Shown here piece after piece: positions 1-21,494 of a stretch of 21,494 bases of DNA. The notes under the pieces are model-generated. The model saw only the letters and a program-made list of their open reading frames with translations, was not told the origin of the DNA and did not search any database. Source of the DNA: an uncultured SAR324 cluster bacterium (GTDB lineage: Bacteria > SAR324 > NAC60-12); NCBI GenBank assembly GCA_902575715.1, contig CACGSI010000018.1, positions 1-21,494 of the forward strand. Direction: 5' to 3'. A program made the translations under genes and the position numbers. Positions within the stretch are counted from its first letter, which is position 1, and every line of letters starts with the position of its first letter.

Positions 1-1
1 A

Positions 2-1309
2 AATTTTAAAAAAATTATAAGTATAACATTAGTTTTGGGTCTAGTTAGCAGTTCTGCGCTAGCTGCCACAAAAATTCATTGGTGGCATGCATTTAAAGGG
101 CGTTTGGGGACATTGTTGGCAGAACAAGTCGATCAGTTTAATGCTGCTCAGAGTGATTATGAGGTAATTCAAAATCGTAAAGGAAATTACTCAGAAACCT
201 TAAATGCTGGTATAGCTGCTTTCAGAGCCAAAAAACACCCGCATATCCTTATGGTTTTTGAGGTTGGTACGGCCTCAATGATGGCTGCAAAGGGAGCTAT
301 AAAACCAATGTATGAAGTAATGTACGAAGCAGGAGCAAAATTTGATCCAGATGGGTTCATTGGACCTGTAAAAGGTTACTACACTACAACTTCCGGTGAA
401 ATGCTTTCTATGCCTTATAATTCTTCTACTCCTGTTCTTTGGGTTAACAGAGATTCATTTAAAAAAGCTGGTATGAATCCTGATATGGATTTATCTACAT
501 GGCAAAAAGTTGGAACAGCTCTAGATAAGTTAAAGTCAACTGGACACAAATGTCCTTTGACTACAGCTTGGCAGAGCTGGGTCCACTTAGAGAACCTATC
601 TGCTTATCATAATGTTGCTTTTGCAACAAAAGAAAATGGATTTGCCGGAATGGATACTGAATTAGTTTTCAATGGTCCTATTCAAATAAAACATATACAA
701 GCTATGGGTGCTTGGGCTAAAGAAGGTAAATTTATTTATGCAGGAAGAAGAAATGAGGGTGGAAACGCATTTAGAGCAGGTGAATGCGCCCTATACACAG
801 AGTCATCTGCAGGATACGCAGGAATTAAGAAAAATGCTAAATTTGATTTTGAAATAAGACATTTACCATATTGGGAAGGAGTAAACGGAGCACCCCAAAA
901 TACTATAATTGGAGGATCATCACTATGGGTTTTGTCCGGTCATAATTCTAAAGAATATAAAGGTGTAGCGGCTTTTCTAAATTTCCTTTCTTCCCCGGTT
1001 ATTCAGGCTGCTTGGCATCAAAACACTGGTTATCTTCCAGTAACCCTTGTAGCAAGTCAAAAAACAAAAGAGTCTGGTTTTTATGACTCTAATCCCGGAA
1101 CAGACATAGCCGGGATCCAAATGACTCGTAAATCACCTACTTCTGTTTCTAAGGGACTCAGGCTAGGATCTTTTGATCAAATTCGTGGAATGATTGATGA
1201 GGAACTGGAGAATGTTTGGAGTGGTAAAAAATCTGCAAAGTCTGCACTTGATAGTGCAGTTAAGAGAGGTAATGTCCTACTTCGAAGATTTGAATCTTCA
1301 AATCGCTAG
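2..1309 (+). CDS. ugpB: UgpB, sn-glycerol-3-phosphate-binding protein, 5' partial (left copy)
   Basis: Periplasmic binding protein of the glycerol-3-phosphate / glycerophosphodiester ABC importer. The frame is open from base 2 and begins N-F-K-K followed by a hydrophobic stretch ending SSSALA, a typical Sec signal peptide. The Met start is therefore probably one or a few codons beyond the contig edge; a TTG at 35 would cut the signal peptide in half and is not credible. About 435 residues are visible, close to the usual UgpB length of about 440. The mature protein starts ATKIHWWHAFKG, typical of UgpB, and has the family-like MVFEVGTASMMAAKGAI and the C-terminal RLGSFDQIRGMIDEELE segments. It is identical to the right-end copy. 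In this copy the following ugpA is truncated, so no complete ugp transporter operon is attached. Confidence 0.9.
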   Translation, partial: NFKKIISITLVLGLVSSSALAATKIHWWHAFKGRLGTLLAEQVDQFNAAQSDYEVIQNRKGNYSETLNAGIAAFRAKKHPHILMVFEVGTASMMAAKGAIKPMYEVMYEAGAKFDPDGFIGPVKGYYTTTSGEMLSMPYNSSTPVLWVNRDSFKKAGMNPDMDLSTWQKVGTALDKLKSTGHKCPLTTAWQSWVHLENLSAYHNVAFATKENGFAGMDTELVFNGPIQIKHIQAMGAWAKEGKFIYAGRRNEGGNAFRAGECALYTESSAGYAGIKKNAKFDFEIRHLPYWEGVNGAPQNTIIGGSSLWVLSGHNSKEYKGVAAFLNFLSSPVIQAAWHQNTGYLPVTLVASQKTKESGFYDSNPGTDIAGIQMTRKSPTSVSKGLRLGSFDQIRGMIDEELENVWSGKKSAKSALDSAVKRGNVLLRRFESSNR

Positions 1310-1320
1310 TAATTATTTTT

Positions 1321-1348
1321 TGTGGAGACAAAATTAAATGTCTCCACA
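1321..1348 (+). terminator. Hairpin between ugpB and ugpA (left copy)
   Basis: A perfect 10-bp stem, TGTGGAGACA paired with TGTCTCCACA, closes an 8-base loop (aaattaaa). It starts 12 bases after the ugpB stop and ends 18 bases before the ATG of ugpA. No uninterrupted T run follows (aattatttattgtttc), so it is more likely a partial terminator or an mRNA-stabilising structure protecting the ugpB message than a full stop. Hairpins behind binding-protein genes commonly raise binding protein over permease. Confidence 0.75.
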
Positions 1349-1366
1349 AATTATTTATTGTTTCTG

Positions 1367-2068
1367 ATGGAAAAAAGAGTACATTTTAAGGGATGGGTTC
1401 TTCCAGCAATTCTAATAGCACCACAGTTATTTATAACTGCTGTTTTCTTTTTTTATCCAGCAGGGACTGCTATTTGGTGGTCTCTTTTTAATCCTGATCC
1501 ATTCGGATTAAGTACAAAATTTGTAGGGTTAGCTAACTTTGAATTTCTTTTTGCTGATCCTTATTACAAAGAAAGTTTCTACACTACAGCAATTTTTTCT
1601 TTTCTAGTAACTTTTTTTTCAATGGGGCTTGCACTTTTTCTTGCTGTTCTTGCCGACAGATTGTTAAAGAGTGCAGGAATTTATAAAACTCTCTTGATTT
1701 GGCCTTATGCGGTTGCACCAGCTATAGCTGGAATCCTTTGGATGTTTCTATTTGATACTCGCACTGGACTAATTTCATGGTATCTTGGATTACTCGGTTA
1801 TGATTGGAACCATCTATTAAATGAAAATGAAGCTATGGGGTTGGTAGTGACTGTATCAACTTGGAGTAGAGTAAGTTATAATTTTTTATTTTTTTTAGCT
1901 GGCTTACAAGCTATCCCCAAATCAATAATTGAGGCGGCAGCAATTGATGGTGCTAAATTTTGGAAGCGTTTTTGGACTATAGTTTTTCCTCTTTTATCAC
2001 CCATAACTTTTTTCTTAGTTGTTATGAACATTGTTTATGCATTTTTGAGATTGTTTCTAAAATATTGA
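1367..2068 (+). pseudogene. ugpA: Truncated UgpA permease (left copy), cut at the repeat boundary
   Basis: The first 226 residues are those of the intact UgpA at 19247-20128. After base 2046 the frame runs into unrelated sequence, adds LRLFLKY and stops at TGA, giving 233 residues instead of 293. The fragment keeps the first membrane segments and the cytoplasmic EAA loop (EAAAIDGAKFWKRFW), which contacts the ATPase, but loses the last membrane segment(s). It is unlikely to form a working permease. The start chosen is ATG 1367; a GTG at 1322 is in frame but lies inside the intergenic hairpin and would place 15 odd residues before the natural MEKRVHFKGW start. Confidence 0.85.
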
Positions 2069-2102
2069 GCTAAACTTTATTTATGTTTTTAAAGGTAATT
2101 TT

Positions 2103-3404
2103 ATGAATCCTAAATTTTACAATTTTAATACATTAAGTTTACATGGAGGTCAACGTCCAGATTCTACAACAGGTTCCCGTGCAGTTCCTATTTATCAAAC
2201 GACATCTTACGTTTTTCAAAGTAGTGATCATGCTGCGGCTCTATATAATTTAGAACAGGGTGGTCATATTTACAGCCGGATTTCTAATCCAACTGTGGCG
2301 GTACTAGAAGAAAGAATTGCAGCATTAGAGGGAGGAACAGGAGCAATTGCAACTGCTTCTGGACAAAGTGCCTTGTTTTCTACTATAGCTACTTTGCTGA
2401 GTCAAGGGAACCACATAGTGTCTTCTGCTTCACTATATGGAGGAAGTATAAATCTTTTTCAGAATACGTTGCCTCGTTTTGGCATTAAAACAACTTTTGT
2501 CAACCCACGAAAACCTAAGGAGTTTAAAAATGCAATTCGCAAAGATACGCGTTTAATTTTTGGAGAAATAATTGGTAATCCAGGTCTAGAAATTTTAGAT
2601 GTACCAAAAATAGCGGAAATAGCCCATGCAGCAGGATTACCTTTACTAATCGATGGGACTTTTAATACTCCTTATTTGTGCAGTGCTTTGAGGTTAGGAG
2701 CTGATTTAGTCACTCATTCAGTTACCAAATGGATGGGTGGTCATGGAGTAGCTATTGGAGGTGTAGTAGTAGAGGGAGGAAAATTTAATTGGGATATAGA
2801 AGGTAAGTTCCCAACTATTACTGAACCTTACTCAGGATTCGACGGTATAAAATTTTTTGAGGAATTTGGACCACAGGCTTTTTCAATGCGCATGCGGTCT
2901 GAGATAATGAGAGATTTTGGTCCTTCCATGAGTCCACAAAATGCATTTTATATCTTACAAGGACTAGAGACTCTCCCAATCAGAATGGAAAAACATATTA
3001 GCAATACAAAAATTATTCTGGAATTTCTAAAAGGAAACGATAATGTCGCTTGGGTATCGCATCCTAGTTTATCAGATCATCCAGATTACAAAATAGCTAG
3101 TAAAATTCTACCTAAAGGTGCAGGTTCAGTTATCGTTTTTGGAATAAAAGGTGGCCGTGATGCAGGATCTAAGTTTATTAATTCAGTAAAACTGGCTTCT
3201 CATTTGGCTAACGTCGGTGACGCAAAAACACTTGTAATTCACCCCGCAAGTACTACTCATGCTCAAATGGATAAAGATAAAATGAAAAAAGCAGGATTGA
3301 CCGAAGATATGATTCGGCTCTCTGTTGGGATAGAGGATGCAGATGATCTAATTGATGACTTTAAGCAGGCTTTAAGGAAATCAGTCAAAATTTCTAAAAA
3401 TTAA
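2103..3404 (+). CDS. metY: MetY, O-acetylhomoserine sulfhydrylase
   Basis: PLP-dependent enzyme of the Cys/Met metabolism family. It makes homocysteine from O-acetylhomoserine and sulfide in the cytoplasm (methanethiol may also be used). At 433 residues it has MetY length, longer than MetB/MetC/MetZ (about 380-400). Visible marks are the N-terminal LHGGQRPDSTTGSRAVPIYQ, YSRISNPT near residue 57, Asp184 in LLIDGTFNTP (pyridine nitrogen contact) and Lys209 in HSVTKWMGGHG as the PLP lysine. The MetY-type insertion around 235-275 (EPYSGFDG...FGPSMSPQNAF) is present. A weak SD (aaagg) precedes ATG 2103. The start lies only 56 bases beyond the inverted-repeat junction, so its native promoter may have been replaced. 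The next gene starts 2 bases after its stop. MetZ is the main alternative, less likely on length and insertion. Confidence 0.93.
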   Translation: MNPKFYNFNTLSLHGGQRPDSTTGSRAVPIYQTTSYVFQSSDHAAALYNLEQGGHIYSRISNPTVAVLEERIAALEGGTGAIATASGQSALFSTIATLLSQGNHIVSSASLYGGSINLFQNTLPRFGIKTTFVNPRKPKEFKNAIRKDTRLIFGEIIGNPGLEILDVPKIAEIAHAAGLPLLIDGTFNTPYLCSALRLGADLVTHSVTKWMGGHGVAIGGVVVEGGKFNWDIEGKFPTITEPYSGFDGIKFFEEFGPQAFSMRMRSEIMRDFGPSMSPQNAFYILQGLETLPIRMEKHISNTKIILEFLKGNDNVAWVSHPSLSDHPDYKIASKILPKGAGSVIVFGIKGGRDAGSKFINSVKLASHLANVGDAKTLVIHPASTTHAQMDKDKMKKAGLTEDMIRLSVGIEDADDLIDDFKQALRKSVKISKN

Positions 3405-3406
3405 AT

Positions 3407-4222
3407 ATGATAATTTTTGTAAAATCAAATTCAGAGAAAATAAAAATTTTTGCTTCAACAGGAGGGAAAACATTCGATCCGGAACAACCCACAATAATAT
3501 TCCTTCATGGAGCAGGAATGGATCACACAGTCTGGAGTTTACAATCCAGATACTTTGCCCATCGAAATTATTCCGTTTTAGCCATTGACTTTCCAGGAAA
3601 TGGAAGATCAGAAGGTAATTGCCTAAAAAGTGTTGAAGAAATGGCAGATTGGGTACATAGTTTAATTATTAGTGCAGGTTTAAAATCAGCAATCTTAGTC
3701 GGACACTCTATGGGAGCTCTTGTAGCATTGGAATTTGCGTATCGATATTCTAAATTTATTAATGGATTATGTTTAATCGGGGTTTCTGCAGAAATGCCAG
3801 TTAATGAATATTTATTAGATGCTGCAACAAACGACAATCCTTTGGCATATGATTTGATAACTTCATGGAGTCACGGACAAGATGGACATTTTGGTAAGGC
3901 ACCTGTACCAGGGCTATCTTTGATAAGTGGAGGAAAAGCTTTGATGAGATCTTTACCAAAAGGTTCTCTGGGTGCTGGCCTAAATGCATGTAATATATAT
4001 AAAAATGGATTAACTGCAGCTAGAGGTGTTTTATGTCCTACAAAATGTATTTTGGCTAGTGATGATAAAATGACACCTTTACGAAAAGGGAAAGAAATGG
4101 GGGCCCTGATTAAAGGCTCCAGCATAAAAATTATTAAAGAGTGTGGACATATGATAATGCTGGAGAAATCTGATGAGTGTCTAGAAGCTCTTAAGTCTCA
4201 TTTTCAAAATATTAAATTTTAA
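3407..4222 (+). CDS. Alpha/beta hydrolase
   Basis: Cytoplasmic alpha/beta-hydrolase-fold protein of 271 residues; substrate unknown. It has the oxyanion-hole motif HGAG (34-37), the nucleophile elbow GHSMG with Ser101, an acid at Asp219 or Asp220 (ILASDDKMTP) and a catalytic His248 (CGHMIMLE). The region around residues 132-205 forms the variable cap. It is too short and too dissimilar to be the acetyltransferase MetX, although it sits 2 bases after metY and is surely co-transcribed. A role in clearing a thioester or ester by-product of sulfur metabolism is possible but nothing in the sequence shows it. No signal peptide. Its 3' end converges on the MBL-fold gene 24 bases away. Confidence 0.88.
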   Translation: MIIFVKSNSEKIKIFASTGGKTFDPEQPTIIFLHGAGMDHTVWSLQSRYFAHRNYSVLAIDFPGNGRSEGNCLKSVEEMADWVHSLIISAGLKSAILVGHSMGALVALEFAYRYSKFINGLCLIGVSAEMPVNEYLLDAATNDNPLAYDLITSWSHGQDGHFGKAPVPGLSLISGGKALMRSLPKGSLGAGLNACNIYKNGLTAARGVLCPTKCILASDDKMTPLRKGKEMGALIKGSSIKIIKECGHMIMLEKSDECLEALKSHFQNIKF

Positions 4223-4246
4223 TTACAACAAAATTTTTTCAAAAAT

Positions 4247-5122
4247 TCACCCTAGCTTTACTTCAAGATTTTTCCAAGAAAGTATTTTATTTTTTATATC
4301 AAATGTCATAAGATCTTCACCAATAAGAATGTGGCCTTTAAAATCTTTTGAAACTTTTTTTAAAAGTTTTTTACGATCGAACTTTGGGGGCGCAAAATGA
4401 GTTAACATAAGTAATCCTACATTCGCTAAAGAGGCAATTTTGCCAACCTCACTGTCGAGTGTGTGGTAAGAAGCAACATTTTTTATGGTTTGAAGCGTTC
4501 TAATTCCATCAATAACAGGCATTTCATTATGTATAAAAACTTCATGTAAAAGCAAATCTGCACCTTTTGCGGCTTCTATTAATGCCGGGCAAAATTTTGT
4601 ATCTCCACTAATAACTACTTTCCCAAGAGGATTTTCAAAAACAAACCCAAATGCTTTCTTTACTGGGTGATGAAGTACTTCAACTGTTTTTACAATTAAA
4701 CCATTAAAATCAATTATTGTACCATCATCTATTTCTGTTACATCGACATGCAGAGCCTTGGTAGAAGGTCTCCTTTCGTGAGCTATTCTTTGTTCTAATT
4801 CTGGTTTCCAAAGTTTCATTAATTTGTTTAAATATATTTTAGTGCCAACTGGTCCAAAAATTTTTTGTGGTCTTGATCTCCCTTGATGCCAGCTTGAAAT
4901 GATTAGTTGAAATAAATCTACAATATGGTCAGAATGTAAATGAGTTAGAATTAAAGCGTCGATTTCAGATCCTTTTACTCCATGTTCTAATAACCGTTGA
5001 GTGACTCCTGATCCACAATCAATCAATATTCTATTTCCTTCGCCGCAATCAATTAGGGCAGAAGGTCCGTATCTAACCAAATCAACAGAAGGGCATCCAC
5101 TTCCTAAAATTGTCAATTTCAT
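4247..5122 (-). CDS. MBL-fold metal-dependent hydrolase (RNase Z-like group)
   Basis: Metallo-beta-lactamase-fold hydrolase of 291 residues, of the RNase Z / arylsulfatase-like subgroup. Two-metal ligands are visible: His61, His63, Asp65 and His66 in THLHSDH, a His at 151/152 (VLHHPV), Asp174 in ISGDTKF and His242 in MLTHFAPP. The N-terminus MKLTILGSGCPS and the long stretch between motifs 1 and 2 are usual for this subgroup. I see no flexible exosite arm that would mark a true tRNase Z, so the substrate is open (phosphodiester, sulfate ester or lactone). No signal peptide. Start is ATG 5122. A candidate promoter with a consensus -10 lies at 5197-5224 and is flanked by an inverted repeat. Confidence 0.85.
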   Translation of the reverse strand: MKLTILGSGCPSVDLVRYGPSALIDCGEGNRILIDCGSGVTQRLLEHGVKGSEIDALILTHLHSDHIVDLFQLIISSWHQGRSRPQKIFGPVGTKIYLNKLMKLWKPELEQRIAHERRPSTKALHVDVTEIDDGTIIDFNGLIVKTVEVLHHPVKKAFGFVFENPLGKVVISGDTKFCPALIEAAKGADLLLHEVFIHNEMPVIDGIRTLQTIKNVASYHTLDSEVGKIASLANVGLLMLTHFAPPKFDRKKLLKKVSKDFKGHILIGEDLMTFDIKNKILSWKNLEVKLG

Positions 5123-5172
5123 CTACTTTTTTTATTAATTTTGTGAATTATACTTTCTCAATCAAAATAGAA

Positions 5173-5211
5173 ATTCCTTGATCTACTTGCCTGCGCATTA
5201 TATCAAGGAAT
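5173..5211. promoter_or_regulatory. Inverted repeat spanning the MBL-gene promoter; candidate operator
   Basis: The arms ATTCCTTGAT (5173-5182) and ATCAAGGAAT (5202-5211) match perfectly and are 19 bases apart. On the - strand the upstream arm abuts and overlaps the -10 box, and the downstream arm falls about 8-18 bases after the expected start of transcription. The pair therefore brackets the -10 box and start point as a repressor operator would. It could instead fold in the RNA, but one arm would mostly lie upstream of the start site. Confidence 0.5.
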
Positions 5212-5224
5212 AGTATTGTGCTAA
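5197..5224 (-). promoter_or_regulatory. Candidate sigma-70 promoter for the MBL-fold gene
   Basis: Read on the - strand: TTAGCA (5224-5219), a 16-base spacer, then a perfect TATAAT (5202-5197). The start of transcription would be near 5190, giving a leader of about 68 bases before ATG 5122. The -10 is consensus and the -35 only partial. AT-rich DNA produces such matches by chance, but the coincidence with the dyad supports it. Confidence 0.45.
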
Positions 5225-5748
5225 ATTTTAATTCTATTATTGCTGAGAAAAACGAGTATCTTACTATTCCAAAGTGTTCTTTGTAGAGACAAAAACACCG
5301 TTTTTATTGAAGCTCTTATTGTTATTAGAAATTTTTAAAATTATTAAGAATAGCTAAAAAGAGAGAAGTAAAACTCCATTCATTTAAAAAATTTGTACCA
5401 TTTGTATAAAAAGTTTACTATGAGTCAACAATTTTTTAAACGGATTAAAAATATTTTATTGATTATTTTAAATCTTTTTTTGAAAAATTATACATAAATA
5501 TCTGATAGATTGAAGATGTAATTTTTTTTGCAATACCAATAGCCATGGCTTATAAGCTGATAATAGCTAAACATAAAGTTGTTTTTTTGAATATAAATAG
5601 TTTTTTTGATTTAAGAAAAAATAAAATTAATTTTAAAAAAATTTTTTTTACAAAAATTTTAATCCAGCAAATTAACTGAAGCAAATTTTAAAAAAAGTAT
5701 GTATTTATATTTGATAATTTAATTTATCCTGAAAATTTCTAAACTAAT

Positions 5749-5777
5749 TTGCATTTAAATGTTAATTTATATAGAAT
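5749..5777 (+). promoter_or_regulatory. Candidate promoter for the DUF1185-EthD unit
   Basis: TTGCAT (5749-5754), a 17-base spacer and TAGAAT (5772-5777) lie just upstream of the gene at 5811. Transcription would start near 5784 and leave a leader of about 27 bases containing the AGGAG ribosome site. It is a near-consensus arrangement in a very AT-rich background. Confidence 0.38.
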
Positions 5778-5810
5778 CTCTATTTTAAATTATTTTACTA
5801 ATAGGAGTAA

Positions 5811-6353
5811 ATGAAACCAATTATAAGAAAAATTGTAATACAATTGGAAGAAATCCATAATGAAATTGAGCAAAAGGTTAATCCACCATCGAGAAAGGTT
5901 TCTGTTGTCGCAGTAATCAAAAATCCTTATGCTAAACGGTATGTTGAAGATCTTGAAGAACTATATGATTTAGGTTCAGAAATAGGAGGTTTTCTGGCAG
6001 AAAGAGGAGTTCAATCACTAGGCGTAAAACCTTCTGATATTCTAAGCTATGGTAAAGGATCAATTGTAGGATTAGATGGTGAAATTGAGCACGCAGCAGC
6101 AATATTGCATCCACGATTTGGAAAACCAGTGCGGGCAGCTGTAGAAAAAGGAGATGATATTATTCCATCCACAAAAAAAATGGGAGGACCGGGGGCATCA
6201 CTTGTTATTCCTTTAACAAATAAAGACAGTATTTGGAGTTTTGACCATATGGATTCGACAGAAATATCAGTACCGGATTCTCCTCGATCAGATGAGATTA
6301 TTGTAGCGTTAGCATTGGCGGATAGTGGAAGACCGCTTGCTCGAACTAAATAG
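5811..6353 (+). CDS. DUF1185 'amino acid synthesis' family protein
   Basis: A 180-residue protein resembling the AA_synth / DUF1185 family (PF06684), whose function is poorly defined despite the name. Family-like stretches are VVAVIKNPYAKRYVEDLEEL (about 32-51), SYGKGSIVGLDGEIEHAAAILHPRFGKPVR (about 79-108) and the glycine-rich KKMGGPGASLVIPL. It is soluble, with no signal peptide. An AGGAG site (5803-5807) five bases before the ATG fixes the start. It is co-directional with the EthD-domain gene 25 bases downstream, a pairing that suggests a small catabolic or detoxifying unit. Recognised by memory of the family only. Confidence 0.8.
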   Translation: MKPIIRKIVIQLEEIHNEIEQKVNPPSRKVSVVAVIKNPYAKRYVEDLEELYDLGSEIGGFLAERGVQSLGVKPSDILSYGKGSIVGLDGEIEHAAAILHPRFGKPVRAAVEKGDDIIPSTKKMGGPGASLVIPLTNKDSIWSFDHMDSTEISVPDSPRSDEIIVALALADSGRPLARTK

Positions 6354-6378
6354 TATTTTAAATTATTGGAGGTAATAA

Positions 6379-6687
6379 ATGTTTAAAGCAATGATTTTGC
6401 TCAAGAGAAAAGATCAATTGTCTCATCGTGAATTCAAAAATTGGTGGATAGGGGAGCATGCTAGATTAGCTATTCAATTGCCTGGATTAAAAAAATTATG
6501 TTTCAATCCCGCAAAAGATGAGAATGCAGTATATGATGGTGTTGCAGAACTTTGGTTTGATTCTGAGGAAAGTTTTGTAAAGGCATATGAAACTGAACTA
6601 GGGAAGGCTGTAGCTGAAGATTCATTAGCGCATGTCGAACGAAGAGACCGTTTGTTTGTAGAGGAGAACGAACTACTAAAATTATAA
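6379..6687 (+). CDS. EthD-domain small protein
   Basis: A 102-residue dimeric alpha/beta-barrel-type protein of the EthD family (PF07110). It opens FKAMILLKRKDQLSHREFKNWW, with the family's WW..EHA segment (WWIGEHARLA), and continues with LPGLKKLCFNP, VYDGVAELWFDS and a C-terminal strand VERRDRLFVEE. These proteins are small stand-alone catalytic or chaperone-like units next to degradation genes; the substrate here is unknown. A strong GGAGG (6368-6372) sits six bases before ATG 6379. Probably co-transcribed with the DUF1185 gene. AT-rich sequence follows, with only a weak stem (ttttaag/cttaaaa) after the stop. Confidence 0.82.
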   Translation: MFKAMILLKRKDQLSHREFKNWWIGEHARLAIQLPGLKKLCFNPAKDENAVYDGVAELWFDSEESFVKAYETELGKAVAEDSLAHVERRDRLFVEENELLKL

Positions 6688-6833
6688 TTTTAAGTCAGGC
6701 TTTAGGTATTGGCTTAAAAATTTTCTAATCTTTTTTTCAATTGGTTTTGTAAATATAGAGATAAAATAATTCCAAGTATATTTCCAAAATAAATTAAACC
6801 CTAAATATATTAATTTTGATAAAAACATTAATA

Positions 6834-7283
6834 ATGAAAAATAAAAAATTAATTATTTTATTAGTCATTTTTTCTATAATTCTTATAAATAAAGTAGCTT
6901 TTTCTGATTCTGCTGGAATAATCAAATATAGACAAAACATGATGAAAGCTACTGCGGGACATATGGGAACAATTTCAGGTATTTTAAAAAACAATTTACC
7001 ATATAAAAATCATATTATCGATCATGCTTATTCTTTAATGGTTTTGAGCAAAATGACAATCAAGATCTTTCCTGAGGGTACAGATGAAGGTAGAACAAGA
7101 GCAAAAAAAATTATTTGGAAGAATTGGCCTAAATTTGAAAAATCATCGCAAAATTTTGTTGATGAAACCACAAGGCTTTTTCAAGTAGCAAAAGATGGGG
7201 ACATTAAAGAAATTGCATTACAAATTAGAAAAACAGGTAAAACTTGTAGTGGTTGTCATAGAAATTTTAGAAAAAGAGACTAA
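6834..7283 (+). CDS. Cytochrome c' (class II c-type cytochrome)
   Basis: An exported mono-heme cytochrome of 149 residues. The N-terminus MKNKK plus a hydrophobic core ending VAFS|DS is a Sec signal peptide. The mature part is helical and ends with a single heme site CSGCH (138-142) within CSGCHRNFRKR, the C-terminal position and CxxCHxxFR pattern of cytochrome c' (PF01322). His142 would be the proximal heme ligand. ATG 6834 is chosen over an in-frame TTG at 6816, which would put MIKTLI before the charged start of the signal peptide. Usual roles are NO binding or electron transfer in the periplasm. It precedes the di-heme cytochrome by 66 bases, so the two may form a respiratory pair. Confidence 0.88.
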   Translation: MKNKKLIILLVIFSIILINKVAFSDSAGIIKYRQNMMKATAGHMGTISGILKNNLPYKNHIIDHAYSLMVLSKMTIKIFPEGTDEGRTRAKKIIWKNWPKFEKSSQNFVDETTRLFQVAKDGDIKEIALQIRKTGKTCSGCHRNFRKRD

Positions 7284-7349
7284 AATTTATAAAAAATTTC
7301 TTAAAAAAAAATTATACAATTTTTAAGTAAAATATAATTAAAATAGAAT

Positions 7350-8226
7350 ATGACTAAACATATTATAAATTTTCTTTTTTTCTCTTTTTTTTTTTAGTTT
7401 AGATATTTCTGCAAATGATGAGATTATAAAAAAAGGTAAATATATTTTCCAAGCATCAGGGGGTTGTTCTTGTCACACAGACACTCAAAATTCTGGAGAA
7501 TTCCTAGCTGGAGGTAGATCTATAAAAACACCTTTTGGGACTTTTTTTGGTAGTAATATAACTCCTGATAATGATAGTGGTATAGGAAGTTGGAGTGATG
7601 AAGATTTCATTAAAGCAATGACAAAAGGAGTAAGTCCTACTGGAAGAAATTATTTTCCAGTATTTCCTTATACTTCCTTTCAACTAATGGAAAAAAATGA
7701 TCTTCTTGCTCTTAAAGCATACATTTTTTCAATTCCTCCAGTTAATAAAAAAAATATTGATCACGATTTGATTTTTCCCGTGGGAAAGGATATTACGATG
7801 TATTTTTGGAAAAAATTTGTTTGGAAAGCAAGGAATTTTTCAAAAAATCCTGATAAGGATAAAACATGGAATAGGGGTGCATATCTTGTAGAAGCAGTTG
7901 CTCATTGCGGAGAATGCCATACTCCAAGAAATCTTTTGGGTGGGCTTAATTTTAGATTGAATCTTGCTGGAACTATTGAAGGCCCAGAAGGAGAAGTTGC
8001 CCCAAACATAACACCAGATATAAAAACTGGAATCGGAAGTTGGAGTAAAATTGATGTAAGTTTTTTTTTATCTTCTGGCATAAAACCTGATGGAGATAAT
8101 TCCCAAGGTTTAATGGGGGAATTAATTGAATTGGGGTATCAGTTTTTAAATAACGAAGACTTGAATTCAATTTCTGAATATTTATCAACACTTTTACCAA
8201 TAGATAATAATTTAAGAAAAAATTAA
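7350..8226 (+). pseudogene. Di-heme cytochrome c, frameshifted in a T11 run in the signal peptide
   Basis: From ATG 7350 the frame reads MTKHIINFLFFS then phenylalanines, and meets a stop just after the T run at 7385-7395. The downstream frame, open from 7369 to 8226, has no normal start near its 5' end. Removing one T joins them into 291 residues with a good signal peptide (cleavage near DISA|NDE). Two similar cytochrome c domains follow. The first has GGCSCHT (Cys39, Cys41, His42), with only one residue between the cysteines. The second has a canonical CGECH (186-190). Each is followed by a NITPD..TGIGSWS-type segment. This layout resembles the di-heme subunits of periplasmic dehydrogenases. 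The shift may be a sequencing error, a phase-variable tract or true decay; an ATG at 7618 would skip the first heme and the signal peptide. Confidence 0.8.
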
Positions 8227-8227
8227 A

Positions 8228-8260
8228 AAACCTTAATTTAAAAAATAAATTTGAAGGTTT
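8228..8260. terminator. Convergent bidirectional terminator
   Basis: AAACCTT (8228-8234) pairs with AAGGTTT (8254-8260). The stem continues inwards with AATTTA/TAAATT after one bulged base, and A-rich sequence precedes the left arm. It lies exactly between the convergent cytochrome and HAD genes and overlaps the HAD stop codon. The stem is weak in GC, so efficiency is uncertain. Confidence 0.5.
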
Positions 8261-8942: not shown

Positions 8943-9180
8943 TATTAAAAAAATAGATATATATTTAGAGTCATTTTTGAAAAAATTAAAGAAAATATTA
9001 AATTTAAAGGTTTAAAAAGTAAATTATTTTAAAAAAGATGATCTATGGGGAAATGTGAAAAATTTATAACTATCAGCGAAAAAATTTAGACCTCTTTTCA
9101 AGAAAAATAAACCCCTGAAAGAATAAAAGCAAAAAATATTAACTTTATTTTAGGAATTCATTTTCAATTAGAAAAAAATT

Positions 9181-12236: not shown

Positions 12237-12247
12237 TTTGTTTAGAT

Positions 12248-13255: not shown

Positions 13256-13277
13256 AAAATTTTATATAAGCTATAGT

Positions 13278-14057: not shown

Positions 14058-14064
14058 CGATCGA

Positions 14065-14886
14065 TTAACCAGAGACAGCAATTGTTTGTCCAGATAAGCT
14101 TCTCGAAATGAAAAGTGCAATCCAAGTAACTAATCCCAAAACAATAGATAAACTTGCAGCCCCAGCAATATTTGCATTAAGTGTAAACTCTGTATAAATT
14201 GTCATTGGAAGAACATCTATATTTGTTGCTAAAGTAAATGCGGTTCCAAAAGCACCCATTGATGTAGCAAAGCAAATAGCTCCTGAAGCTATCAAACCAG
14301 GTTTTAGTGCTGGAATGATAACATCTATCACAATCCTAAAAGGAGGTGCCCCTAATGATTTTGCGGCCTCTTCCAGAGACTTATCTAGTTTTTCAGCTGC
14401 AGCCATAATAGTTAGTATTACTCTGGGTATTGAAAAGTATAAATATCCAAAAAATAATCCTAACATTGAATATGCAAAAACAATTTTATCGCCTAAAAAA
14501 GCTTTAGTAATTGATCCTATCAATCCTTGTCGACCTGCTAACATAATTATTAAAAAACCTATTACCACTCCCGGAAAAGCAAGAGGAAATGTAAGAATTG
14601 ATAAAACTATTTCTCGACCTGGAAAAGTATTTCTGACTAGAAACAATCCTGCAGCAGTAGAAATCACTAAAGCTGTAAATGTAACAGTAATAGAAAGTAT
14701 TAAAGTGGCAATCATACTTTCAAAATGCCTGGGGGTATTTAATATAGTGAAATATGATGAAATTCCGGAATCACTACTAGCACCAACGATTGCTAATTGA
14801 ACCATTGGCACTATAAAAAAAGTAATAAAAAAAATAGCCACAGGTAAAGCAAGGACAAATAGCTTAGGATAATCGTAATATTTCAT
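14065..14886 (-). CDS. ABC importer permease 1 (second transporter)
   Basis: Inner-membrane permease of 273 residues with six predicted hydrophobic segments, beginning MKYYDYPKLFVLALPVAIFF. The EAA loop is EEAAKSLGAPPFRIVIDVIIPALKPG, close in form to the partner permease, as in PotB/PotC-type pairs. No strong SD is visible before ATG 14886. A perfect hairpin lies between this gene and the binding-protein gene, so its level is probably below that of the binding protein. Confidence 0.88.
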   Translation of the reverse strand: MKYYDYPKLFVLALPVAIFFITFFIVPMVQLAIVGASSDSGISSYFTILNTPRHFESMIATLILSITVTFTALVISTAAGLFLVRNTFPGREIVLSILTFPLAFPGVVIGFLIIMLAGRQGLIGSITKAFLGDKIVFAYSMLGLFFGYLYFSIPRVILTIMAAAEKLDKSLEEAAKSLGAPPFRIVIDVIIPALKPGLIASGAICFATSMGAFGTAFTLATNIDVLPMTIYTEFTLNANIAGAASLSIVLGLVTWIALFISRSLSGQTIAVSG

Positions 14887-14910
14887 TAAAATCTTAGAAA
14901 AAAATCTGAT

Positions 14911-14937
14911 TAAGAGGTAGTAATCTACTACCTCTTA
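14911..14937 (-). terminator. Hairpin between binding-protein and permease genes
   Basis: A perfect 11-bp stem (TAAGAGGTAGT with ACTACCTCTTA) closes a 5-base loop. In the transcript it ends 24 bases before the permease ATG and is followed by atcagattttttt, so it could act as a partial rho-independent terminator. It starts about 10 bases after the binding-protein stop. It is placed like the ugpB-ugpA hairpin. Confidence 0.8.
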
Positions 14938-14947
14938 GTCGATCAAT

Positions 14948-15961
14948 TTATCTAACTTCATTTAGATAACGTTCTTTAAATGAGTTTTGTACAGCAGCCA
15001 TTTTAGCATAATTGAGCGGTTTTGATCTCGCGTAGTCTGATGCTGGTAAAAACTTTGATGCAGCTTCTTTAGACATAGCAGATGCCCTAATCGGCCTCAA
15101 AAATGCGTTGGCCCATACTTTTTGACCATCATCTGACATTATGAAATCTAAAATGCTTTTACCTTTGGCAGGATTTGGACTATTTTTTACCAAACTCATG
15201 ACATAAGGAACCACAACCGTTCCTTCTTGAGGTATAACAAAAACAACATTGGCTTTGTCCTTATACTTCCCTCTATATGCATTAAAGTCATAATCAAAAA
15301 GAATAGGAATTTCTCCAGATAGTACCCTTGCATATGAAGTTTGTTTAGGAACAATTGGCTTGTTTTTTGATAATTTCTTAAAGTAATTTATTCCGGGGTC
15401 AAAGTTATCTAAGCTTCCTCCCATAGCTCTATTTACCGCAACTGCTCCAGCATAACCAACAAAAGCAGATGAAGGATCTAAATACCCGATCATACCTTTA
15501 TAGGTCGGTTTCAACAAATCTGACCACGATTGGGGAACCGGAGCTCCTTCAAGAGCATCAACGTTAACAAAAAACCCCAAAGTTCCTGAATGAATAGTAA
15601 ACCACTTCCCTTGAGGATCTTTGAGTCCATCAGGAATTTCATCAAAATGTCGAGGTTTATATGCTTCTACAACTCCTTTTTGTCCAGCTTGAATTCCAAA
15701 TGATACTCCATAGTAAGCAACATCTGCTACGGGACTATTTTTTTCTGCTAGTAACTGTGAAAGTGTTTGTCCAGAGTTTTTATTGTCGTGCGGAATATCA
15801 TATCCTAAATGTTTCTTTATCATCTTAAGTTGACTAGCCCAGTCTGCCCATTGTGGAGGGCAGTTATAACAAATAGCATCAGCACCAAAAATGCTAGTAA
15901 CGTTTATTAAAAATAATATGGAACTAGATAATAATATTTTCTTCATTACTTTATAAAACAT
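14948..15961 (-). CDS. Periplasmic solute-binding protein of the second importer
   Basis: Extracellular solute-binding protein of 337 residues, of the Fe3+/polyamine/phosphonate-type ABC superfamily (bacterial SBP family 1/6/13). A Sec signal peptide ends near IFGA|DA. The mature N-terminus carries a CxxC pair (Cys31, Cys34, in ICYNCPPQW). Conserved-looking segments include HSGTLGFFVNVDAL, YKGMIGYLDPSSAFVGYAGAVAVN and ILFDYDFNAYR, the usual hinge and ligand-cleft regions. A GGAG seven bases before ATG 15961 supports that start over ATG 15946. No iron-binding tyrosine pair is obvious, so iron is unlikely. The neighbours suggest a glycerophosphodiester or another organic phosphate; this is inference. 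Confidence 0.87.
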   Translation of the reverse strand: MFYKVMKKILLSSSILFLINVTSIFGADAICYNCPPQWADWASQLKMIKKHLGYDIPHDNKNSGQTLSQLLAEKNSPVADVAYYGVSFGIQAGQKGVVEAYKPRHFDEIPDGLKDPQGKWFTIHSGTLGFFVNVDALEGAPVPQSWSDLLKPTYKGMIGYLDPSSAFVGYAGAVAVNRAMGGSLDNFDPGINYFKKLSKNKPIVPKQTSYARVLSGEIPILFDYDFNAYRGKYKDKANVVFVIPQEGTVVVPYVMSLVKNSPNPAKGKSILDFIMSDDGQKVWANAFLRPIRASAMSKEAASKFLPASDYARSKPLNYAKMAAVQNSFKERYLNEVR

Positions 15962-16006
15962 ACTTAAACTCCAAAATTAAGAATTGTTATTTCTCTCCGG
16001 ACCTTT

Positions 16007-16021
16007 ATGACACTATGTCAT
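16007..16021. promoter_or_regulatory. Palindrome ATGACA-cta-TGTCAT, candidate operator
   Basis: Two perfect 6-base arms around 3 bases, with further partial symmetry outside (cct..agg). It lies 46 bases before the start codon of the second binding-protein gene and about 40 bases after the candidate start of transcription. It is a dyad, not the direct TGTCA repeat of a Pho box. A GntR-type or similar dimeric regulator is possible. Confidence 0.42.
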
Positions 16022-16039
16022 TAGGGTTGTCTTTATAAA

Positions 16040-16052
16040 CCTATTTGATAGG
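16040..16052. promoter_or_regulatory. Short inverted repeat CCTAT-ttg-ATAGG near the start of transcription
   Basis: Five-base arms around three bases lie just downstream of the candidate -10 box, about 6-18 bases into the predicted transcript. It may be a second operator or a small 5' stem. Weak alone; noted because a second dyad lies 19 bases away. Confidence 0.28.
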
Positions 16053-16064
16053 AAATAATCTGCC

Positions 16065-16094
16065 ATTATATTCATAATCATATAATTTAGACAA
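16065..16094 (-). promoter_or_regulatory. Candidate promoter of the second importer operon
   Basis: On the - strand: TTGTCT (16094-16089), an 18-base spacer and a perfect TATAAT (16070-16065). Transcription would start near 16058, giving a leader of about 97 bases that carries both dyads. The 213-base gap here is the longest between co-directional genes in the uptake array, fitting a separate transcription unit. Confidence 0.45.
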
Positions 16095-16174
16095 GATTTT
16101 TTAAAATTTTGTTATTAAATTTTACAAATTAAATTATTTGTAAAACTATTAATTTTTTAATTACTCAAAATACT

Positions 16175-17227
16175 TTAATTTTTAATTTTCTCAACAAATT
16201 TAAAAACTTGGTCAGGAAAGTCGGTAAAAACTCCATCAACTTTTGCTTTATTAAAAAAAATTTCTAGAAGATTTTCAAATGAACTGACATAATTGGGTAA
16301 TCTATCAGCCCTCAAGGTGTATGGGTGTACTTTTAATTTTAATTCCTTTGCGATATTGACCATATTCGTCAATTGTAAATCCCCTGAAATACTTTTCCCT
16401 GCAACTACATGTTTCATCCACGGTCCTATTCCATTTGCATAAGTAGCTATTTCTTTAAGACCGTTTTTTGTTTTAAAATAATCAAAATCTGTTTTTGAAA
16501 GGTTCCATTTATTTTCACCAATTAACTGAGTCAATCTTAGTTTAGTCTTATATTTTTCTCTCATTATTTTTAAAACCTCTGAATCAAATGATTGAATCCA
16601 AATCGGATCTGATTTCTTTAGATACCCGAACTTATTCAGTATTTCAAAAAGTTTTTTAATGGGATTTAAATTAAATTTTTTATGAGTCCTATAACCTTTT
16701 ATTTCAATATATAATCCCATCCTTCTGCCATGGCTTTTTTCCAAACCTCTTACTAATTTAATTATTTCCTCGAGAGTTGGAACCCTAAACAAATTATATT
16801 CTTTAGGGAATCTATCGGAATATAATTGACTAGAACCCCTTTTTTTTGAACGCTCATTAACTCTTAGCCTTTTTACTTCTTCCAATTTGAATTCCATTGA
16901 ATAGTAGTTTCCATTTATATCTGATCGTTCCGGAAAAATTTCTTCTACATTTGTAGTTGCATTTAAGGTAAGGTCATGCATTACAATAAGATGTGCATCT
17001 TTAGTTAAAACAACATCTAATTCAAGAAAATCAGCTTTCATTCCAAATGCTAATGCTGCACTTGCAAGAGTATGCTCCGGTAGATATCCTGATGCTCCAC
17101 GGTGAGCTATAATCAACTTTTCCTTAGAGGCAAAAGCTTTAAGATTAATTATGAATATTGAGACAAAATAAAAAATAAATAGGAAAAAATAATATTTTTT
17201 TTTCTCAATAACAAAAAACAATTTCAT
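16175..17227 (-). CDS. Exported glycerophosphodiester phosphodiesterase (GDPD family)
   Basis: Hydrolyses glycerophosphodiesters to sn-glycerol-3-phosphate and an alcohol. 350 residues from ATG 17227; the in-frame TTG at 17236 adds only three residues. The N-terminus has Lys residues, then a long hydrophobic run and ends LKAFA|SKEK, a signal peptide or anchor, so the enzyme works in the periplasm like GlpQ, not in the cytosol like E. coli UgpQ. Catalytic and metal residues: His42-Arg43 (AHRGASG), Glu69 and Asp71 (LELDVVL), His84 (VMHD), a later Glu in YIEIKG, and the end motif VDGVFTDFPD. The insert between HD and PTLEE is the GlpQ-like cap. It follows ugpC after 99 bases on the same strand and would feed UgpB directly. 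Confidence 0.92.
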   Translation of the reverse strand: MKLFFVIEKKKYYFFLFIFYFVSIFIINLKAFASKEKLIIAHRGASGYLPEHTLASAALAFGMKADFLELDVVLTKDAHLIVMHDLTLNATTNVEEIFPERSDINGNYYSMEFKLEEVKRLRVNERSKKRGSSQLYSDRFPKEYNLFRVPTLEEIIKLVRGLEKSHGRRMGLYIEIKGYRTHKKFNLNPIKKLFEILNKFGYLKKSDPIWIQSFDSEVLKIMREKYKTKLRLTQLIGENKWNLSKTDFDYFKTKNGLKEIATYANGIGPWMKHVVAGKSISGDLQLTNMVNIAKELKLKVHPYTLRADRLPNYVSSFENLLEIFFNKAKVDGVFTDFPDQVFKFVEKIKN

Positions 17228-17326
17228 GGGGATCAAAATCTATTTTCAAATAAGAATTAAAACTCTTAAGAATCAAAATTTTCGATTTGTAAAGAATTTA
17301 TTAATTATTTTCAAGTGGGGATAAAA

Positions 17327-18385
17327 TTATACATTTATTCTTTTTCCTGATTTCCTATCGAAAAGATGGATAGAATTGGGAGAAATACTAAAACTCAATT
17401 CATTTTGAATATCTTTCTGATTAATTAGACCTTGAACCATAGAGATGATTTTGATGTCTGAGTTTTTTAATTTACCATGCATTATAGTACTGGCGCCTAT
17501 TGGCTCTAAAATATTGATTTGAATAATTATTTTACCATTTTTATTTGGTATAAGATCTTCAGGCCTTAAACCAGCGAAAACTTCTCCCGTAAAATTTGTG
17601 GAACATTTTAAAGATATTCCATTATCGAGTATTAAATTATAACCATCGGAATTTGCTTTTATAAGATTCATAGCAGGGCTGCCTATAAATTGAGCAGCAA
17701 AAATTGTTTCTGGTTTTTGGAAGACATCTAAAGGGGAACCAATTTGTTCAGCAACACCTTCGTTCATAACTAACATTCTATCTGCTAAGGTCATAGCTTC
17801 AACTTGATCATGTGTTACAAATAGGGACGTAGTTCCCAATCTTTGTTGTAATGATTTAATCTCAAGTCGCATTTGAATTCTTAATTTAGCATCAAGGTTA
17901 GATAAAGGTTCATCAAATAAAAACACTGAAGGCTGTCTGACAATTGCTCTTCCCATAGCAACTCTCTGCTTCTGACCCCCTGATAATTCTCTTGGTTTTC
18001 TATCCAGCAAATTATCAAGTTCTAACATCATTGCTGCTTTATTAACTCTTTCACTAATTTCTGATTTAGGAAAACCAGCTATTTTTAAGCCATAGGCCAT
18101 ATTCTTAAAAACACTCATATGAGGATAAAGTGCGTAATTTTGAAATACCATAGCAATATTTCTATCCATCGGTTCTTTGCTATTTACAAGGTCATTATCA
18201 ATGAAAATTTCTCCAGATGAAACGTTTTCTAGACCCGCTATCATTCTCAATAATGTTGACTTACCACAGCCCGAGGGCCCCACAATCACAATGAATTCTC
18301 CATCACTAACCTCCATGTTAATTCCGTGTAAGACCTTTGTTTTACCAAAATTTTTTTTTATATTATTAAGTATTAATCTTGCCAT
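17327..18385 (-). CDS. ugpC: UgpC, ATPase of the glycerol-3-phosphate importer
   Basis: ATP-binding subunit coupled to UgpAE; 352 residues against 356 in E. coli. Walker A is GPSGCGKS (36-43), the signature LSGGQ (134-138), Walker B VFLFDE (154-159) and the switch His192 in VTHDQ. The C-terminal regulatory domain (QFIGSPAMNLI, FAGLRPEDL) is that of the MalK/UgpC group. ATG 18385 lies 4 bases after the ugpE stop; a GTG at 18400 would overlap ugpE and add MINNI. Tight spacing implies coupling with ugpE. Confidence 0.93.
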   Translation of the reverse strand: MARLILNNIKKNFGKTKVLHGINMEVSDGEFIVIVGPSGCGKSTLLRMIAGLENVSSGEIFIDNDLVNSKEPMDRNIAMVFQNYALYPHMSVFKNMAYGLKIAGFPKSEISERVNKAAMMLELDNLLDRKPRELSGGQKQRVAMGRAIVRQPSVFLFDEPLSNLDAKLRIQMRLEIKSLQQRLGTTSLFVTHDQVEAMTLADRMLVMNEGVAEQIGSPLDVFQKPETIFAAQFIGSPAMNLIKANSDGYNLILDNGISLKCSTNFTGEVFAGLRPEDLIPNKNGKIIIQINILEPIGASTIMHGKLKNSDIKIISMVQGLINQKDIQNELSFSISPNSIHLFDRKSGKRINV

Positions 18386-18389
18386 AATA

Positions 18390-19247
18390 TTATTTATCAC
18401 TATCTGTTAAGCCTCGAATAAAAAGTTTTTGCATTGAAACAACAACTAATATTGGAGGCAACATTGCCATTATAGAAGCAGCCATAACTACTGGCCAAGG
18501 TGTAACATCATCTTGACCTCCGATCATTTGCTCAACTCCCATTATGATGGTATTCATTGAGGTATCTGTAGTCATTAGCAAAGGCCAAAGAAACTGATTC
18601 CATCCAAAAATAAACATTATAATAAATAGGGCAGCAATGTTAGTACGACTTATAGGAATCAAAATATCGATAAAAAAACGTATAGGTTTAGCTCCATCAA
18701 TTCTTGCAGCTTCAACAATTTCATCAGGTACTGTCATAAAAAATTGTCTAAATAGGAATGTAGCAGTTGCAGAAGCTATAAGTGGGAAAATTAATCCTGA
18801 ATATGTGTTTAGCAAACCAAAACTGGCAACAACTTCGTAAGTTGGAAGAATCCTCACCTCTACTGGTAACATTAAAGTAAGAAAAATTAACCAAAAGAAA
18901 ATATTTTTTGCAGGAAATCTAAAAAAAACAATTGCAAATGCAGATGTAAATGAAATTACAATTTTTCCTAAAGCGATACCAATAGCCACTATTGAAGTAT
19001 TAAGCAACATTCTTGCTACTGATGCAGACGTTTGTCCACTATCACCATCTATTAAGGCACGACTATAGTTTTCTACCAGTTTGTCACCAGGCCATAAAGG
19101 CATAGGGGGGTGAATAACCTCTTCATTAGTGACAGTAGATGCTACAAAAGCCAGCCAAAGTGGAAAAAATAAAATCAAAACTCCAGATGACAGGCCTAAA
19201 TGAGTTAACCAGTAATTTATTCCTTTTTTTTCAACCATTCCTGACAT
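18390..19247 (-). CDS. ugpE: UgpE, permease of the glycerol-3-phosphate importer
   Basis: Inner-membrane permease of 285 residues (281 in E. coli) with six hydrophobic segments and the EAA loop EAARIDGAKPIRFFIDILIPISR. The periplasmic loop GDKLVENYSRAL after the first segment and VIMGVEQMIGGQDDVTPWPVVMA near the end are UgpE-like. Its ATG shares one base with the ugpA stop (taATG), so the two permeases are translationally coupled. No own SD is needed or clearly seen. Confidence 0.93.
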   Translation of the reverse strand: MSGMVEKKGINYWLTHLGLSSGVLILFFPLWLAFVASTVTNEEVIHPPMPLWPGDKLVENYSRALIDGDSGQTSASVARMLLNTSIVAIGIALGKIVISFTSAFAIVFFRFPAKNIFFWLIFLTLMLPVEVRILPTYEVVASFGLLNTYSGLIFPLIASATATFLFRQFFMTVPDEIVEAARIDGAKPIRFFIDILIPISRTNIAALFIIMFIFGWNQFLWPLLMTTDTSMNTIIMGVEQMIGGQDDVTPWPVVMAASIMAMLPPILVVVSMQKLFIRGLTDSDK

Positions 19248-20128
19248 TAATAATGAACTCTTTTCTCTAAAAATTTGAATTGTAAAATTGTTAAAAGCCC
19301 TACAATAACAAGCAAGATGACTGATTGTGCTGCAGAAGAACCAAGGTCCAGTCCAACAAAACCATCTGAATAGACTTTATATACAAGAATAGTTGTTGAC
19401 TGTCCGGGGCCGCCTTTAGTTATGGTATGAATAACCCCAAACGTATCAAAAAATGCATAAACAATGTTCATAACAACTAAGAAAAAAGTTATGGGTGATA
19501 AAAGAGGAAAAACTATAGTCCAAAAACGCTTCCAAAATTTAGCACCATCAATTGCTGCCGCCTCAATTATTGATTTGGGGATAGCTTGTAAGCCAGCTAA
19601 AAAAAATAAAAAATTATAACTTACTCTACTCCAAGTTGATACAGTCACTACCAACCCCATAGCTTCATTTTCATTTAATAGATGGTTCCAATCATAACCG
19701 AGTAATCCAAGATACCATGAAATTAGTCCAGTGCGAGTATCAAATAGAAACATCCAAAGGATTCCAGCTATAGCTGGTGCAACCGCATAAGGCCAAATCA
19801 AGAGAGTTTTATAAATTCCTGCACTCTTTAACAATCTGTCGGCAAGAACAGCAAGAAAAAGTGCAAGCCCCATTGAAAAAAAAGTTACTAGAAAAGAAAA
19901 AATTGCTGTAGTGTAGAAACTTTCTTTGTAATAAGGATCAGCAAAAAGAAATTCAAAGTTAGCTAACCCTACAAATTTTGTACTTAATCCGAATGGATCA
20001 GGATTAAAAAGAGACCACCAAATAGCAGTCCCTGCTGGATAAAAAAAGAAAACAGCAGTTATAAATAACTGTGGTGCTATTAGAATTGCTGGAAGAACCC
20101 ATCCCTTAAAATGTACTCTTTTTTCCAT
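19247..20128 (-). CDS. ugpA: UgpA, permease of the glycerol-3-phosphate importer (intact copy)
   Basis: Inner-membrane permease of 293 residues (295 in E. coli), partner of UgpE. Six hydrophobic segments; EAA loop EAAAIDGAKFWKRFWTIVFPLLSP; C-terminal part with DTFGVIHTITKGGPGQSTTILVYKVYSDGF, the standard ABC-sugar-permease motif. Start is ATG 20128 (MEKRVHFKGWVLPAILIAPQ). An in-frame GTG at 20173 lies within the ugpB-ugpA hairpin and would add 15 unrelated residues. The first 226 codons lie in the inverted repeat; the repeat ends at 19449, inside this gene. Confidence 0.93.
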   Translation of the reverse strand: MEKRVHFKGWVLPAILIAPQLFITAVFFFYPAGTAIWWSLFNPDPFGLSTKFVGLANFEFLFADPYYKESFYTTAIFSFLVTFFSMGLALFLAVLADRLLKSAGIYKTLLIWPYAVAPAIAGILWMFLFDTRTGLISWYLGLLGYDWNHLLNENEAMGLVVTVSTWSRVSYNFLFFLAGLQAIPKSIIEAAAIDGAKFWKRFWTIVFPLLSPITFFLVVMNIVYAFFDTFGVIHTITKGGPGQSTTILVYKVYSDGFVGLDLGSSAAQSVILLVIVGLLTILQFKFLEKRVHY

Positions 20129-20146
20129 CAGAAACAATAAATAATT

Positions 20147-20174
20147 TGTGGAGACATTTAATTTTGTCTCCACA
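20147..20174 (-). terminator. Hairpin between ugpB and ugpA (right copy)
   Basis: Same 10-bp stem (TGTGGAGACA with TGTCTCCACA) and 8-base loop as at 1321-1348, here in front of the complete permease operon. It lies 11 bases after the ugpB stop. It probably reduces read-through into ugpA or protects the ugpB message 3' end, giving binding protein in excess. Confidence 0.75.
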
Positions 20175-20185
20175 AAAAATAATTA

Positions 20186-21493
20186 CTAGCGATTTGAAGA
20201 TTCAAATCTTCGAAGTAGGACATTACCTCTCTTAACTGCACTATCAAGTGCAGACTTTGCAGATTTTTTACCACTCCAAACATTCTCCAGTTCCTCATCA
20301 ATCATTCCACGAATTTGATCAAAAGATCCTAGCCTGAGTCCCTTAGAAACAGAAGTAGGTGATTTACGAGTCATTTGGATCCCGGCTATGTCTGTTCCGG
20401 GATTAGAGTCATAAAAACCAGACTCTTTTGTTTTTTGACTTGCTACAAGGGTTACTGGAAGATAACCAGTGTTTTGATGCCAAGCAGCCTGAATAACCGG
20501 GGAAGAAAGGAAATTTAGAAAAGCCGCTACACCTTTATATTCTTTAGAATTATGACCGGACAAAACCCATAGTGATGATCCTCCAATTATAGTATTTTGG
20601 GGTGCTCCGTTTACTCCTTCCCAATATGGTAAATGTCTTATTTCAAAATCAAATTTAGCATTTTTCTTAATTCCTGCGTATCCTGCAGATGACTCTGTGT
20701 ATAGGGCGCATTCACCTGCTCTAAATGCGTTTCCACCCTCATTTCTTCTTCCTGCATAAATAAATTTACCTTCTTTAGCCCAAGCACCCATAGCTTGTAT
20801 ATGTTTTATTTGAATAGGACCATTGAAAACTAATTCAGTATCCATTCCGGCAAATCCATTTTCTTTTGTTGCAAAAGCAACATTATGATAAGCAGATAGG
20901 TTCTCTAAGTGGACCCAGCTCTGCCAAGCTGTAGTCAAAGGACATTTGTGTCCAGTTGACTTTAACTTATCTAGAGCTGTTCCAACTTTTTGCCATGTAG
21001 ATAAATCCATATCAGGATTCATACCAGCTTTTTTAAATGAATCTCTGTTAACCCAAAGAACAGGAGTAGAAGAATTATAAGGCATAGAAAGCATTTCACC
21101 GGAAGTTGTAGTGTAGTAACCTTTTACAGGTCCAATGAACCCATCTGGATCAAATTTTGCTCCTGCTTCGTACATTACTTCATACATTGGTTTTATAGCT
21201 CCCTTTGCAGCCATCATTGAGGCCGTACCAACCTCAAAAACCATAAGGATATGCGGGTGTTTTTTGGCTCTGAAAGCAGCTATACCAGCATTTAAGGTTT
21301 CTGAGTAATTTCCTTTACGATTTTGAATTACCTCATAATCACTCTGAGCAGCATTAAACTGATCGACTTGTTCTGCCAACAATGTCCCCAAACGCCCTTT
21401 AAATGCATGCCACCAATGAATTTTTGTGGCAGCTAGCGCAGAACTGCTAACTAGACCCAAAACTAATGTTATACTTATAATTTTTTTAAAATT
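20186..21493 (-). CDS. ugpB: UgpB, sn-glycerol-3-phosphate-binding protein, 5' partial (right copy)
   Basis: Identical to the left copy; open to the contig end, so only the start codon and perhaps one or two residues are missing. The signal peptide (KKIISITLVLGLV...ALA) and about 412 mature residues are present. It heads the complete order ugpB-ugpA-ugpE-ugpC followed by the exported GDPD. The promoter, and any Pho box, would lie outside the window, so phosphate control cannot be judged here. Confidence 0.92.
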   Translation of the reverse strand, partial: NFKKIISITLVLGLVSSSALAATKIHWWHAFKGRLGTLLAEQVDQFNAAQSDYEVIQNRKGNYSETLNAGIAAFRAKKHPHILMVFEVGTASMMAAKGAIKPMYEVMYEAGAKFDPDGFIGPVKGYYTTTSGEMLSMPYNSSTPVLWVNRDSFKKAGMNPDMDLSTWQKVGTALDKLKSTGHKCPLTTAWQSWVHLENLSAYHNVAFATKENGFAGMDTELVFNGPIQIKHIQAMGAWAKEGKFIYAGRRNEGGNAFRAGECALYTESSAGYAGIKKNAKFDFEIRHLPYWEGVNGAPQNTIIGGSSLWVLSGHNSKEYKGVAAFLNFLSSPVIQAAWHQNTGYLPVTLVASQKTKESGFYDSNPGTDIAGIQMTRKSPTSVSKGLRLGSFDQIRGMIDEELENVWSGKKSAKSALDSAVKRGNVLLRRFESSNR

Positions 21494-21494
21494 T

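Follow-up and report, generated by a model that had tools for sequence, protein, structure and literature searches.

In the study of Lasken and Stockwell (2007; PMC1855051) on chimeras formed during multiple displacement amplification (MDA), 406 of 475 chimeras were inverted, and 76.8% of the joins were made at no fewer than two complementary bases, with a maximum of 21. The inversions joined points less than 10 kb apart in 337 of the 406 cases (83%) and points more than 10 kb apart in 69 of the 406, and complementarity was present in only 34.8% of the inverted joins of more than 10 kb. The authors trace the inverted chimeras of phi29 to a displaced 3' end priming on a nearby strand, and argue that hairpin self-priming is not a major route. 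A further study places the peak of the overlaps in MDA chimeras at 6 nt, with most at 5-8, and the usual distance between the joined points near 250-300 nt (PMC4595205). In two single-cell assemblies of 454-FLX data, seven chimeric contigs each were found, in which non-adjacent regions had been joined by chimeric reads, and one case possibly arose from a rearrangement early in MDA (PMC2731171).

The window, i.e. the whole stretch of DNA analysed here, is a contig of 21,494 nt from an uncultured SAR324 cluster bacterium. It shares with the chimeras described in PMC1855051 an inverted second segment, short shared bases and a single join; unlike most of the inversions in that study, its join spans 17.4 kb, and amplification of the sample by MDA is an assumption on our part. 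As in the single-cell contigs of PMC2731171, non-adjacent regions stand in one contig, although those contigs were verified with a sequenced genome of their own organism, whereas the window is compared with a relative at about 74-83% nucleotide identity. The mirrored inverted structure also recalls the palindromic reads obtained after MDA in PMC13265396, but those are long reads of tardigrade mitochondria.

Self-comparison of the window revealed that the arms at 1-2046 and 19449-21494 are 100% reverse-complementary over 2046 nt, confirming the perfect inverted repeat described in the initial annotation, and that a unique spacer of 17402 nt lies between them; there is no N anywhere in the window. 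A match of this length cannot be due to chance: the second-longest inverted pair in the window among those listed (minimum length 30, seed 12) measured 35 nt at 71%, and the identity of the arms stops sharply, with mismatches at 223 of the 300 positions just past them. Each arm carries ugpB (PRK10974, 549 bits, cut-off 411) together with the beginning of ugpA, which agrees with the gene content originally assigned to the repeat. The features of the window that bear on the repeat are the following.

1-2046, plus strand: left arm, a probably spurious inverted ugpB (minus about five 5' bases) with the beginning of ugpA; reverse-complementary to 19449-21494 without a mismatch.
1322-2068, plus strand: truncated ugpA frame that reads on for a few codons within the pepN remnant, a probably artefactual ORF from the ORF listing.
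2042-2046, plus strand: TTTTT common to ugpA and pepN, microhomology at the join, from alignment of the left copy to genome G026.
2044-2073, plus strand: pepN remnant, the last nine codons FEIVSKILS and the stop; relatives end in FEIVSKALx upstream of metY.
2103-3404, plus strand: metY, O-acetylhomoserine aminocarboxypropyltransferase (PRK08134, 695.8 bits, cut-off 636); native, its upstream neighbour apparently replaced.
2047-19448, no strand: unique segment, collinear with contig C11 of G026 by gene-order and nucleotide comparison.
17327-20173, minus strand: ugpC, ugpE and ugpA, all intact, of the native ugp operon (UgpC, UgpE and UgpA NCBIfam models above cut-off).
19247-20173, minus strand: full ugpA (PRK10561, 381 bits, cut-off 335).
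19449-21494, minus strand: right arm, the native copy of ugpB with the 5' part of ugpA, which runs on into ugpA-ugpE-ugpC and is collinear with G026 across the arm boundary, to 21277.

Both copies of the arm stop at the same base, which is in each case the end of the contig, and their outer flanks, which would be distinct around a real invertible segment, lie outside the contig. The codon in front of Asn-Phe-Lys-Lys has A (base 1) as its last letter, which rules out the start codons ATG, GTG and TTG, and aligned relatives make base 1 the third position of about codon 2 of ugpB. Taken together, these observations indicate that both contig ends lie inside ugpB, about five bases in, and not before its start codon as had been proposed. 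Contig ends cluster near the ugpB start in SAR324 assemblies (the end of L133 and the starts of L136-L138, together with both window ends). The C11 contig of G026 ends inside ugpB, contigs of G003, G022 and G020 start about 200-300 nt before this gene, and contigs of G023 and G015 read through its start region. A repeat, a variable region or a coverage dip at the ugpB start may explain why the window ends there too.

Among the best 80 of 413 relatives, the best syntenic matches were SAR324 cluster bacterium records (L001-L003) and a MAG labelled Proteobacteria (L004); the proteins compared from the left half were metY, the alpha/beta hydrolase, the MBL hydrolase, the PF06684 protein, the EthD-type protein and cytochrome c'. 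An alphaproteobacterial origin was dropped, as the best loci by the alpha/beta hydrolase, metY and their neighbours were, within the same best 80, SAR324 records. Queries with metY and UgpB found no relative in viral contigs, and a megablast of the window found no match in plasmids, and neither a virus nor a plasmid was retained as a source. A more distant plasmid search with bases 1-8000 returned nine records, with matches only to the ugpB/ugpA, metY and c-type cytochrome genes. The window contains no Rfam family at gathering score, no tRNA and no tmRNA, and therefore the arms are not an RNA-gene repeat.

The native gene order can be read from relatives within a set of 52 genomes, the phylum of the SAR324 genome G002. 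The closest of these is G026, whose metY is 88% identical; G+C is 32% in the window and 33% in its contig C11. This one contig (34741 nt) has the gene order pepN, metY, hydrolase, MBL protein, PF06684 protein, EthD protein, cytochrome c', glpD, phosphoesterase, an ABC cassette of four genes, glycerophosphodiesterase and ugpC-ugpE-ugpA-ugpB, and window 2042-21277 is collinear with it in five blocks at 74-83% nucleotide identity. The HAD gene of the window falls in a gap between the blocks, an additional stretch of about 2.6 kb follows the MBL gene in C11, and C11 ends at codon 73 of ugpB, corresponding to window 21277. Window 218-2046 matches C11 only at the ugpBA locus, so that the left arm maps to the ugp locus of G026 in inverted orientation, as the second segment of an inverted MDA chimera does. 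Apart from a palindrome of 62 nt, C11 itself lacks inverted repeats. A corresponding order (ugpBAEC, glpD, HAD, cytochrome c', EthD, PF06684 protein, hydrolase, metY) is present on one contig of G003, at a lower identity to the window than that of G026; neither gdpd nor the genes of the ABC cassette were found on this contig, which ends at metY and just upstream of ugpB. The collinearity with G026 and the corresponding order in G003 indicate that the right arm stands in its native place, and, as judged from this gene order, the right ugpBA copy is the native one and the left copy spurious. The comparison with related genomes that the initial annotation had suggested thus found the same order in G026 without the second arm.

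The minus strand from 9693 to 21494 forms a coherent phosphodiester/glycerol-3-phosphate region, with ugpBAEC, a glycerophosphodiesterase of the GlpQ type, glpD, a metallophosphoesterase whose best NCBIfam model, SpdA, stays below its cut-off, and a second ABC transporter. The latter is related to 2-aminoethylphosphonate transporters, below the cut-offs of their models, and its substrate may be a phosphodiester or a phosphonate. The proteins of both ABC transporters (12251-15961 and 17327-21277) are 83-96% identical to those of G026, the other genes compared 65-82% and metY 88%. The glpD gene (glycerol-3-phosphate dehydrogenase; 9696-11339, minus strand) has one in-frame stop in its N-terminal part, leaving only the last 362 codons in the ORF listing, and the glpD of G026 is an intact open frame of 548 codons; the stop is either a sequencing or amplification error or the mark of a pseudogene. 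The PF06684 'Amino acid synthesis' protein and the EthD-family protein encoded at 5811-6687 are conserved as near neighbours in SAR324 relatives (62-82% identity).

At the left junction, the left copy aligns to ugpA of G026 only up to 2046, and to the pepN-metY stretch of G026 from 2042. The two alignments therefore indicate a join that fuses ugpA to the tail of pepN through the shared TTTTT. In G026, pepN (aminopeptidase N) is complete, with 911 aa ending in ...GDVFEIVSKALS, 30 bases before metY; in the window, none of the rest of pepN was found beyond the last nine codons and the stop. The sequence GTTTTTGA occurs at the join point of pepN in eight of the nine pepN-bearing relatives; in G022, the remaining one, the pepN match ends short of the C-terminus and the join point is not readable. 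The overlap of 5 nt, deduced through the pepN of relatives, falls within the short complementarity of inverted MDA chimeras (2-21 nt, commonly 5-8), its length presuming that the pepN of the window strain had the T run of the relatives, of which the Phe codon guarantees only three. Random joins share at least five bases in 1.0% and at least three in 7.9% of 200,000 draws from the unique segment, and a five-base overlap in a T run, taken alone, is weak evidence.

Matches to metY at E<=1e-120 were present in 34 of the 52 phylum genomes, and orthologues at 74-88% identity in 13 of the 52. The region upstream of metY was readable in 11 of these relatives (362 nt in G001, at least 1500 nt in all others), with G003 set aside as its contig ends within metY, and G039 as it offers only 254 nt upstream, a stretch that holds no pepN match. 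In nine of these 11 testable relatives pepN lies directly upstream of metY (nine of 12 if G039 is counted as a miss), and in G020 and G015 a gene for an ABC-transporter ATPase takes its place; neither ugpA nor ugpB stood upstream of metY in any of the 11, in the stretch read. At E<=1e-60, a threshold below which more distant relatives exist, ugpB was found in 17 of the 52 genomes, as a single copy in each. The 25-base junction, allowing up to three mismatches, was found in none of the 52, which is a weak test as an equivalent junction at such divergence would probably differ at more than three positions; a search for the exact 25 bases in viral contigs, an equally weak test, found none.

We propose that the inverted repeat arose ahead of sequencing as an inverted chimera, most likely when a small amount of DNA was amplified by phi29 MDA, and that it then passed into the contig; on the comparisons above we would give this reading a probability of roughly 0.87. 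Synthesis of a nascent strand would have run from ugpB to the left, past the ugp operon and across the 17-kb segment, until the end of pepN was reached. The 3' end of this strand (...TCAAAAA) would then have left the template and paired, over some five A/T bases, with the ugpA region, either of a nearby displaced strand or of the same strand, and extension would have proceeded outwards again across ugpA and ugpB. If the strand had folded upon itself, extension would have halted at its own 5' end, leaving two ends at the same base; a simpler alternative for the equal ends is that an assembler collapsing both arms has one outer end. The 17402 nt between the arms exceed the distance of less than 10 kb that is typical of inverted MDA chimeras, without defining them, and this spacing argues against the proposal. 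The self-folding variant, which best accounts for the equal ends, also has against it that hairpin self-priming is excluded as a major route in PMC1855051. The fact that pepN is not universal before metY, being replaced in two relatives and missing from the short upstream stretch of G039, likewise counts against the proposal as a whole.

In-cell fold-back inversions are known. A real, strain-specific inverted duplication, in which ugpBA was inserted at the end of pepN by a microhomology-mediated template switch, folding back within the living cell in the manner of break-induced replication, would leave exact arms and microhomology looking identical to those observed. If true, most of pepN would have been replaced, and the arms would flank a 17-kb glycerol-3-phosphate/phosphodiester uptake region and could recombine to invert it. 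Such an event would, however, break a gene retained in most testable relatives and add a truncated ugpA, and it would have to account for zero differences over 2046 nt and for two ends that stop at the same base. The relatives show no such repeat pair, neither in C11, which lacks a long inverted repeat, nor in the 17 genomes with a single ugpB, and the absence of the junction from the 52 genomes, a weak test, points the same way; we consider a real duplication very unlikely. The initial leaning towards a chimera is thus supported by the gene order in relatives, by the intact ugpBAEC operon around the right copy and by the pepN tail at the left junction.

A purely computational join, in which assembly or scaffolding reused the ugpBA unit to the left of the unique segment without any chimeric molecule, is very unlikely as well. 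It would explain the equal ends, as expected from a collapsed unit with one outer end, and at least four of the 17 ugpB-bearing contigs of the phylum end inside ugpB or no more than about 300 nt from its start, which suggests a common break point. The sharing is nevertheless limited to five Ts, far below the overlap or k-mer length normal in assembly, so that the join would be expected in some read, and the window is without N. Perfect mirrored ends are also the product of a missed-adapter or template-complement error in long reads, when both strands of one molecule are read in sequence, but such an error yields no unique spacer at the turn, whereas here 17402 unique bases separate the arms, and this origin is extremely unlikely. 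With all artefact routes taken together, there is little doubt that the mirrored ends are an artefact.

Therefore, a mirrored contig end that at its inner edge cuts into the tail of the neighbour predicted by relatives, with a few shared bases at the cut, is likely to be a fold-back chimera, and this can be suspected even without reads. Read literally, the contig would give a SAR324 genome one more UgpB, a truncated UgpA and a disrupted pepN, and would also suggest an invertible segment; the mirrored ends are almost certainly an ordinary artefact and not a real feature of this genome.
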